DNA from: Streptomyces sp. NBC_00448
GTDB lineage: Bacteria > Actinomycetota > Actinomycetes > Streptomycetales > Streptomycetaceae
DNA length: 64,000 nucleotides
Assembly (NCBI RefSeq): GCF_036014115.1
Contig: NZ_CP107913.1
Span: 5,131,001-5,195,000 of the forward strand
Reading direction: 5' to 3'
Shown: in pieces, positions 61,981 to 64,000 of the stretch
Layout of the letters: each line of letters begins with the position of its first letter
How positions within the stretch are numbered: position 1 is the stretch's first letter
The notes under the pieces: generated by a model
Told to the model about the DNA's origin: nothing
The model's database searches: none
The model's input: only the letters and a program-made list of their open reading frames with translations
Translations under genes and position numbers: made by a program

Positions 61981-62009
61981 CCACCCCACCCTCCGGGCCG
62001 CAGCCCGCG

Positions 62010-62310
62010 CGACGGGTTGCGGTGTCACCGCCGGGTGCCGCTCCGAGGGGCGCGAGGAACTGCGCGACCAGCCTGCGCGGCGGCGCGCTGTGACCCGGGT
62101 CCCCAGCCTGCGTGGCGGGGTGGTGTGTCACCGGCGGGTGCTGTGCGGGGGCGCGGGGAACTGCGCGCTCAGCCCGCGCGGTGGCGCGCTGTGGCCCGGG
62201 GCCTGAGCCCGTGCGGCGGCGCGGTGAGCCACCGGCAGGTGCCCTGCGGGGGACCGCGCGCTCGGGTCGTGCGGCGGGGGGCGTGGCACGGGGTGAGGAC
62301 CGCGGGGTGG
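62010..62310. repeat. About three degenerate 102-bp tandem repeats, in a 484-bp gap
   Basis: GTGTCACCG at 62022 and 62126 and a weaker copy near 62224, with GGGGCGCGxGGAACTGCGCG between, give a period near 102 bp. AACTGCGCGAC also occurs in the 113-bp inverted repeats, so these belong to one streptomycete repeat family. The remainder, to 62464, contains only the penicillin-binding protein's leader. Confidence 0.75.
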
Positions 62311-62464: not shown

Positions 62465-64000
62465 ATGTTCGCGCGGCGAAGCGGTGAGCAACGGAGGCTG
62501 CGGCCGAGGCAGTTAGCCGTGCGGACGCTGCGGACGGCACGTTCGGCGGCGGCCCGGCTGCCGAAGCCGCACCGCGGCACCGGGAAGACCGAGGCACCCG
62601 AGGCGCCCGCGAGCCCCGAGGCACCCTCGGACCGTACCGGCGCCGTCGGGGGCGGAAAGCGGTGGTGGGCGCCGTTACGGCGGCTCCGCCCGCTGCGCCC
62701 GCGGTACCCGCGGCCGAACCGCACCGGCTGGCGCCGGTGGGTCCCCTCGCTGCGCCAGACCCTGCTGCTGTGCACCTGGAGCGTGCTCGCCCTGATCGCG
62801 CTGGTCGGCTGGGCCTATGAGCGCACCGCGATCCCCACCGACCTGAACGCCTACGCGACCCAGCAGGACAACGTCTACTACTGGGCCGACGGTACCGAGA
62901 TGGCCCGGGTCGGCCCGGTCGACCGGCAGGCGATGCCGCTGGACCGTATACCGACCGCCGTGCAGTCCGCGGTGCTCGCCGCCGAGAACGCGTCGTTCTA
63001 CTCCGACCACGGCGTCTCCCCCAGGGGCATCACCCGGGCGGTGGCGAACATGGCCACCGGCGGCCAGACGCAGGGCGGTTCCACGATCACCCAGCAGTAC
63101 GTCAAGAACGTGTACCTCGACCAGGACCAGACGATCTCCCGCAAGATCTCCGAGATCTTCATCGCGATCAAGCTCGACCGCAAGATGAGCAAGAAGCAGA
63201 TCCTCGACGGCTACCTCAACACGAGCTGGTTCGGCCGCGGCGCCTACGGGGTGCAGCGCGCCGCGAAGGCGTACTACGGCGAGGACGTCTCCCAACTCAA
63301 CCCGAGCCAGGCCGCGTTCCTCGCCGCGCTGCTCAAGGGCGCCGGCCAGTTCGACCCGTCGGTGAGCGCCGCCAACCACCACCGCGCGGTGGCGCGCTGG
63401 AACTGGGTGCTGGACCGGATGGTGAAGACCGGCAAGCTGTCGGCGGCGCAGCGGGCCACGTACACGAAGTTCCCCGAGCCGATCGCGCCGCCGAAGCCGG
63501 CCGGGCTGAGCGGGCAGACCGGCTACCTCGTGGACACCGCACGCGCCTACGTCTCCGCGCACAGCGGCATCTCCGACCAGCGGTTCGACCTCGGCGGCTA
63601 CCAGATCTACACCACCTTCCAGAAGCCGAAGGTGGACGCGCTGGCCGCCGCCGTCAAGCAGCAGACCGCGCGGCTGCGCCCGAAGGACCGCCCCGCCGAT
63701 CGCGATGTGCGGGTCGGCGCCGCCTCGGTCGCGACCGACGGCCGCATCCTCGCGCTCTACGGCGGCCCCGACTACGTCAAGCAGGGTTTCGACGACGCCG
63801 ACATCGCGATCGTGCCGGCCGGCACCACCTACGCGCCGTTCGTGTACGCGGCGGCCCTGCGCGACGGCGTGGTCCGCACCCGGGACGCGCCGCGGGCCCG
63901 GGTCGACCCGCAGTCCCGCTACGACGGCGACGACAAGGTGCCGATACAGACGCCCGAGGGCCCGTACTGGAGCCGGGACGGCAAGGTCGTCAAGACCGCC
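62465..64000 (+). CDS. Class A penicillin-binding protein, C-terminus cut by window edge
   Basis: 512 visible codons. A basic, Pro-rich cytoplasmic tail (1-95), one membrane helix (about 98-118), a GT51 glycosyltransferase domain (about 135-310) with the catalytic Glu in Ala-Ala-Glu-Asn-Ala-Ser-Phe-Tyr near 173 and Gly-Gly-Ser-Thr-Ile-Thr-Gln-Gln near 203, then the start of the transpeptidase domain. Where this family has Gly-Ser-Thr-x-Lys-Pro-Phe, the sequence reads Gly-Thr-Thr-Tyr-Ala-Pro-Phe near 452-458, so the catalytic Ser and Lys are both missing. It may be a transglycosylase-only protein. The ATG follows GAGGGGGGAC. Confidence 0.93.
   Translation, partial: MFARRSGEQRRLRPRQLAVRTLRTARSAAARLPKPHRGTGKTEAPEAPASPEAPSDRTGAVGGGKRWWAPLRRLRPLRPRYPRPNRTGWRRWVPSLRQTLLLCTWSVLALIALVGWAYERTAIPTDLNAYATQQDNVYYWADGTEMARVGPVDRQAMPLDRIPTAVQSAVLAAENASFYSDHGVSPRGITRAVANMATGGQTQGGSTITQQYVKNVYLDQDQTISRKISEIFIAIKLDRKMSKKQILDGYLNTSWFGRGAYGVQRAAKAYYGEDVSQLNPSQAAFLAALLKGAGQFDPSVSAANHHRAVARWNWVLDRMVKTGKLSAAQRATYTKFPEPIAPPKPAGLSGQTGYLVDTARAYVSAHSGISDQRFDLGGYQIYTTFQKPKVDALAAAVKQQTARLRPKDRPADRDVRVGAASVATDGRILALYGGPDYVKQGFDDADIAIVPAGTTYAPFVYAAALRDGVVRTRDAPRARVDPQSRYDGDDKVPIQTPEGPYWSRDGKVVKTA

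Follow-up and report, generated by a model that had tools for sequence, protein, structure and literature searches.

The window, by which we mean the whole 64,000-nucleotide stretch of DNA analyzed here, ends inside a gene for a class A penicillin-binding protein (PBP) whose transpeptidase domain has lost its catalytic motifs, which raises the question of what such a protein does if it no longer cross-links peptidoglycan. The open reading frame lies on the + strand at 62465-64000 and is still open at the window end. In the genome sequence beyond, a single contig of 9.65 Mb, the gene ends 0.7 kb past the window and encodes a full protein of 746 aa, residues 1-512 of which lie inside the window. 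The protein fits the definition of the class A PBP sequence family, with a GT51 domain followed by a transpeptidase domain in one membrane-anchored chain. The membrane anchor helix at residues 96-120 (62750-62824) was delimited by eye as a hydrophobic run and is a helix in the AF2 model. The GT51 (Transgly) domain at residues 143-319 (62891-63421) matches PF00912 with 197.3 bits against a cut-off of 27, and carries both Glu174 in ENASF (62984-62986), which we take to be the glycosyltransferase (GT) catalytic residue, and Glu230 in EIFIA (63152-63154), presumably the second GT glutamate. The transpeptidase domain, recognized by Pfam (residues 425-673) and by fold match, starts at 63737 and runs past the window end at 64000; its match to PF00905 scores 39.5 bits against a cut-off of 22.1, and the two scanned paralogues reach 89.3 and 130 bits.

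Loss of the transpeptidase motifs

Formation of the PBP acyl-enzyme with stem peptide or penicillin depends on the serine and lysine of the SxxK motif. An earlier note, made from the window alone, had claimed that GTTYAPF replaces this Ser-x-x-Lys box in a protein with an intact-looking GT domain, and had proposed a transglycosylase-only class A protein that may serve as a scaffold. The replacement is found at 63821-63841, where alignment to paralogues and orthologues sets GTTYAPF against GSxxKPF, with Thr for Ser454 and Ala for Lys457: the window PBP reads VPAGTTYAPFVYAA, and two aligned paralogues read VGSTFKPYVLAA and PGSTFKPVIFTA. The remainder of the domain, which had been correctly placed outside the window, is degenerate too. 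Compared with three other GT51 proteins of the genome, the window PBP has all three catalytic motifs broken, with GTTYAP for GSTFKP (TTYA at SxxK), GVN for SLN, SVN or SIN (SxN, residues 531-533) and LPG for KTG (residues 656-658). The protein thus has neither the serine and lysine of SxxK nor the SxN and KTG motifs of a functional penicillin-binding PBP, and a by-eye scan of the full transpeptidase domain revealed no correctly placed S-x-x-K, only a misplaced SAKK near residue 700. Misalignment of the SxxK box can be ruled out on the same grounds, as the paralogues align cleanly. A sequencing error or frameshift is ruled out because a further 20 genomes of the genus show the gene in the same state. 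As the earlier note had suggested, the GT domain is intact, with both glutamates and the conserved GT motifs in place. Taken together with the orthologues, all of which lack the SxxK lysine, the full sequence and the absence of a correctly placed SxxK strongly support a putative transglycosylase-only class A protein.

The family was sampled in two steps. The genus set comprised 35 genomes, 20 of which, besides that of the window, hold an orthologue (54-87% identity), and a scan of named genomes contributed the best 80 of 141 relatives. The scan patterns, QQDNVYY and WADGTEM, precede the GT catalytic residues and hence do not select for the state of the transpeptidase. Nine of the 20 orthologues are identical to loci from the named genomes, mostly of Actinacidiphila, so that the genus is probably Actinacidiphila or close to it. 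With these nine loci counted once, the first set contains 92 rows, that is, 91 distinct homologues and the window. A second, order-wide sample provided 13 further copies, none repeating the first set, for a total of 105 distinct sequences, window included, from Actinacidiphila, Streptomyces, Kitasatospora and relatives (still with the best 80 of 141). A fourteenth match in the order sample (L216) has intact motifs, groups with paralogue family B (see below) in the tree, and was left out of the counts.

The SxxK lysine is missing from all 105 sequences, a result well outside chance that also bears out the earlier reading of the box. The serine is present in 40, SxN in 88 and KTG in 38, and both GT glutamates are kept in all 105; 16 of the 105 sequences have lost all three motifs. 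Within the first set (n = 92), the lysine position holds T in 60 sequences, A in 25, G in four, M in two, S in one and K in none, and the serine position T in 61, S in 30 and P in one. SxN is retained in 79 of these 92 and KTG in 36, one draft-contig homologue (L037) being unreadable at KTG, and Glu174 with Glu230, GGSTITQQ and RK are each found in 92/92. The order sample (n = 13) has the lysine in 0/13, the serine in 10/13, SxN in 9/13, KTG in 2/13 and both GT glutamates in 13/13, with Q and L also among its lysine replacements. A candidate rule, that SxN is lost only where KTG has already been lost, held in 13/13 cases among the first 92 sequences and was broken in the order sample by L205, which combines GVN with KTG. 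Four genomes carry two copies of this PBP (L059/L071, L061/L094, L067/L103 and L206/L217), and the SxxK lysine is absent from all eight. In one genome without a full copy, a 201-residue open frame (G010:C368:268710-269243) is 56% identical to PBP residues 26-205 and is possibly the remnant of a truncated or broken PBP. Phage relatives of the PBP (five listed of 49 records) all fall below 60% identity.

Ancestry and retention of the dead domain

The genome of the window has four GT51 matches, the three others being class A PBPs whose motifs are intact. Across the 21 genomes that carry the dead PBP, paralogue family B reads GSTFKP in 20 and GSTWKP in one, with S-x-N and KTG in 21/21, and paralogue family C reads GSTFKP, SVN and KTG in 21/21 each. 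Since B and C retain their motifs in the same genomes, the loss is specific to the dead-PBP lineage. In a maximum-likelihood tree the 92 dead PBPs form one clade (SH-aLRT 100) with B as its sister and C outside, the tree having been inferred by a quick method with midpoint rooting and containing unresolved forks among its 92 tips. Fitch counting over these tips gives a single loss of the lysine, 12 changes at KTG and six at SxN, and assigns the ancestor T at both the serine and the lysine position with SxN and KTG retained; the ancestral serine position is unsure, because that tree leaves out the 13 later copies, of which 10 have Ser. Two sequences from records titled Streptosporangium nondiastaticum (L090) and Saccharothrix sp. 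ST-888 (L119) nest among Streptomyces and Kitasatospora, which suggests mislabelled genomes or transfer.

A pseudogene can be ruled out, as a single open frame of at least 647 residues is found in 91/91 distinct homologues. The best alignment runs 3-35 residues beyond the stop at the C-terminus in 20 of the 91, in-frame TGA codons were flagged in some matches of the 35-genome genus scan, and L037 is the sole homologue of the 91 that is broken inside the transpeptidase domain. As far as its sequences can tell, the dead PBP is an old, conserved Streptomycetaceae lineage and not a decaying gene. Mean pairwise identity of the transpeptidase domain in 20 dead-family members is 0.70, between the 0.63 of B and the 0.76 of C; dN/dS was used only qualitatively because dS appears unreliable at this G+C content. 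Of 51 transpeptidase positions invariant in both B and C, the 20 dead-family members keep 27 invariant, and the remaining 24 include S454, K457, S531, N533, K656 and T657. Eight further positions are conserved in the family and differ in B and C (G441, F442, Y461, R473, T496, E498, Y501 and R504), four of them in or beside the family signature TPEGPYW (63950-63970). This signature is present in 104 of the 105 sequences (91/92, the exception reading TPVGPYW, and 13/13) and in 0/42 B and C sequences.

The AF2 model of the PBP, built from a 71-sequence alignment, has a pLDDT of 84.8 and a pTM of 0.73. Its predicted transpeptidase part matches Mycobacterium tuberculosis PonA1 with Z 41.5 (2.1 Å over 335 residues), and the whole model matches Acinetobacter baumannii PBP1a with Z 41.9 (3.9 Å over 483 residues). 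Such a shared predicted fold does not show activity. The retained fold, the family-specific residues and the co-inherited neighbor described below would fit a structural or partner-binding role of the dead domain, in keeping with the scaffold that had been proposed.

The CE4-fold neighbor gene

On the opposite strand, with its gene end 0.7 kb past the window, lies a gene for a 439-residue secreted-looking protein, here called P0005. It has no Pfam or NCBIfam match, Pfam remaining empty even at E 10, and a PDB sequence search returned antibody fragments and nanobodies only. Its AF2 model (pLDDT 79.1, with residues 1-68 under 50) resembles insect chitin deacetylase (Foldseek E 1.7e-11; VIA Z 21.1 for 5z34 and 5zns), M. 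smegmatis 3rxz (Z 20.9) and Helicobacter pylori HP0310 (3qbu, Z 20.3), and thus has a predicted NodB fold. All 89 rows keep D121, H203 and H207, which were tentatively matched, by motif order, to the Asp-His-His metal triad of CE4 enzymes. P0005 is like the CE4/NodB deacetylases in fold (Z 20-21), and its invariant Asp, His and His follow the order of that triad, but it differs from them in its lack of a Pfam or NCBIfam match and in the tandem Asp of motif 1: it reads FSWDG, with Trp in place of the first Asp of TFDD, the catalytic base in the CE4 motif roles given in the available parts of the literature (PMC4505593, PMC10967932). FSWDG, placed by motif order, is found in 28/28 linked and 9/9 unlinked family members. 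P0005 may deacetylate by means of another base, or may itself be a pseudoenzyme, the second of the pair; two CE4-fold proteins lacked deacetylase activity on the substrates tried, according to the accessible text of PMC4505593. The wider CE4-fold family occurs in 35/35 genomes of the genus set (e.g. L188-L196, G000:C1:5741836-5743023), and nine unlinked members share the FSWDG and HFNGH motifs.

At 98 of 100 loci (89 of the 91 distinct loci), a relative of P0005 is found no more than 2.1 kb from the PBP, in a sample that includes the best 80 of 141 relatives. The 89 pairs are convergent in 73 cases, divergent in 14 and, in two (L059, L061), have the partner upstream on the same strand at 2.0 kb. 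Convergent gaps are below 150 bp in 67 of the 73, the largest being 1.3 and 1.5 kb (L105, L110). No CE4-like gene was found within the available flanks of L111 or of L067, which ends at its contig end, nor within 1.5 kb of L217, the second PBP copy in its genome. Among the 12 pairs of the order sample, 11 are co-directional, with gaps of 39-216 bp, and one is convergent. Gene calling over about 4 kb on both sides of 67 named loci recovered the PBP in 66, the partner in 62 and the next neighbor family in 17.

Presence of the two genes was also compared across genomes. In the genus set a close P0005 orthologue (at least 598 bits) is present in 21/21 genomes with the PBP versus 0/14 without, the 14 holding only distant P0005-family members of at most 517 bits; among these 14, one genome (G016) is 71% complete and another (G010) has the possible broken PBP and no close P0005. 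In a second genus of the family, presumably Streptomyces and represented by 25 genomes, P0005 (at least 579 bits) is found in 12/12 genomes with the PBP versus 0/13 without, PBP presence having been set at E of at most 1e-172 with L216 set aside, a level that a very diverged member could escape. Presence and absence hence agree in 60/60 genomes (21 + 14 and 12 + 13), although close genomes are not independent, so these co-occurrence counts overstate the evidence and the Fisher values ignore relatedness. Neither protein was found at these levels in 15 sampled genomes outside the family. The association of a CE4-fold gene with the dead PBP is new here.

Beyond the partner at one locus (L005:7200-9308, - strand) lies a 702-residue ORF that was named by eye as a secreted serine-carboxyl (S53-like) peptidase; it occurs at 3/100 loci, the flanks of many loci being too short to reveal it. 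Elsewhere in the genome of the window, a transpeptidase domain (-) and a canonical polysaccharide deacetylase domain (+) lie no more than about 250 bp apart (L220/L012, G000:C1:6638352-6639936), which makes a second neighborhood of a PBP and a deacetylase, and this transpeptidase is putatively of class B type, given the absence of a GT51 match there.

Proposed function and alternative readings

We consider it probable that the window PBP is a glycan polymerase with a single activity, which neither cross-links strands nor is acylated by penicillin, and which retains a folded dead domain and a co-inherited CE4-like partner. Its membrane-anchored GT51 domain would polymerize lipid II into glycan strands. 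The C-terminal domain would keep the penicillin-binding fold and form no acyl-enzyme, because SxxK has always lost its lysine and mostly its serine, with SxN and KTG eroding as well. Other enzymes would cross-link the strands, and the genome of the window, with seven YkuD-domain matches and 11 transpeptidase-domain stretches in all, encodes YkuD proteins, other transpeptidases and the three intact class A PBPs that could do so. The dead domain would present a folded surface carrying TPEGPYW, probably binding a partner or the nascent strand, and the CE4-fold protein would take part in the same process, the simplest case being that it acts on the strands of the polymerase. What the analysis shows is the loss of sequence motifs, the conserved GT residues, the predicted folds, and the co-occurrence and adjacency of the two genes; from these we infer the GT activity, the absence of penicillin binding, the cross-linking by partners and the role of the CE4-like protein. 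Given that Ser is kept in 40/105 sequences and KTG in 38/105, some members might bind beta-lactams without acylation. A bolder version, which we regard as doubtful, is that of a dedicated glycan-strand module making uncross-linked, peptidoglycan-like strands that are deacetylated or capped by the CE4-fold partner, yielding a linear or loosely attached hyphal glycan that is separate from the load-bearing sacculus and continues to be made when beta-lactams block transpeptidation.

Much of the evidence also bears on what else the transpeptidase half could be. That it still catalyzes by way of Thr454 or a different residue, the general base being displaced, seems very improbable: SxN (88/105), KTG (38/105) and Ser (40/105) persist in part of the family, and the available text of a 2016 survey by Ogawara credits class A PBPs of Streptomyces that lack SxxK with the ability to "function as PBPs" (PMC6273383), but the lysine is lost in 105/105 with a freely variable replacement, the window has all three motifs broken, and the family-specific transpeptidase positions include no Ser or Cys, their only hydroxyls being T496 and two Tyr. 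It is unlikely, in our estimate, that the domain is a functionless remnant decaying under relaxed selection and tolerated for its useful GT half. The repeated erosion of KTG and SxN (12 and six Fitch changes) and the 24-28 transpeptidase positions conserved in paralogues and not in the dead family speak for such decay; against it stand the open frame of at least 647 residues in all 91 distinct homologues, with only L037 breaking inside the domain, a transpeptidase identity that falls between the values of the intact paralogues, and a nearly invariant TPEGPYW. A fold and a family-specific motif retained without catalysis could also befit a sensor with non-covalent binding of muropeptides or beta-lactams and control over the GT domain or the CE4-like partner, yet the motifs of the ligand pocket vary (SxN in 88/105, KTG in 38/105), and we hold this to be quite unlikely.

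For the neighbor gene, the alternative is that it adjoins the PBP by inherited gene order alone, with no shared function. Most pairs are convergent and hence have no common promoter, and the B paralogue is often found some 0.2 Mb away from the locus; however, the other flanking genes change (next best 17/67), the pair takes convergent, divergent and co-directional (39-216 bp gaps) arrangements, its chromosomal position differs widely between G031 and G028, both single-contig genomes, and the two genes agree in presence and absence in 60/60 genomes. We therefore judge inherited order alone to be fairly unlikely.

The reading of a single-activity polymerase sets the window PBP beside several known systems. 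Bifunctional class A PBPs (PonA1, Escherichia coli PBP1b, A. baumannii PBP1a) have the GT51 and transpeptidase fold in common with it (Z about 40), but it does not retain their SxxK, SxN and KTG. Monofunctional glycosyltransferases of the MtgA/SgtA type, which are expected only to polymerize glycan, have no transpeptidase domain; the window PBP would be like them in glycan-only polymerization and differs in keeping a full-length dead transpeptidase domain, and it has sequence relatives with solved structures among them. A possible analogue is E. coli PBP1b S510A, a transpeptidase-dead form that, in the accessible part of PMC5089857, still polymerizes and is the sole glycosyltransferase needed when the L,D-transpeptidase YcbB cross-links; like the window PBP as proposed here, it is a GT-active, transpeptidase-dead class A PBP feeding another cross-linker, but it is an engineered point mutant, whereas the window PBP belongs to a natural lineage.

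SxxK-less class A PBPs of Streptomyces have been known since Ogawara 2016, to which the clade with a CE4-fold partner adds. The available parts of that paper report that 13 of 100 class A PBPs from Streptomyces lack SxxK (e.g. SAV_4423 and STRVI_3845, the latter with relatives from S. iranensis, S. hygroscopicus and S. bingchenggensis), with SxN and KTG mostly conserved in such proteins (PMC6273383). They resemble the family described here in genus range, class A architecture and the missing SxxK; their locus tags are unmatched to the loci analyzed here, and two of the species named, S. iranensis and S. hygroscopicus, also gave dead-PBP loci (L104, L073). In the same parts, the proteins are divided into three groups and a lone sequence, with no mention of an SxxK-less clade, a partner or a mechanism (PMC6273383). 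The term SxxK is absent from the accessible portion of a 2022 review on the PBPs of actinobacteria that produce beta-lactams (PMC9146315), and the titles and abstract beginnings listed from the open-licence literature pointed to no work describing a naturally transpeptidase-dead class A clade or a PBP/CE4-like pair. The lineage would represent a natural, old and still diversifying experiment that separates glycan polymerization from cross-linking. Its members have lost SxxK, SxN and KTG to different degrees within a single predicted fold, which opens the question of a non-catalytic role for the class A transpeptidase domain. The co-inherited CE4-fold gene would offer a genetic handle on the fate of the strand. 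Beta-lactam producers belong to the same family, in which the PBP is a candidate for a polymerase insensitive to penicillin.

Upstream of the PBP gene, the intergenic region at 61995-62256 contains a direct repeat of about 101 nt in two to three copies that includes GGGGCGCGRGGAACTGCGCG, a 17-base part of which gave two matches versus 0.01 expected.
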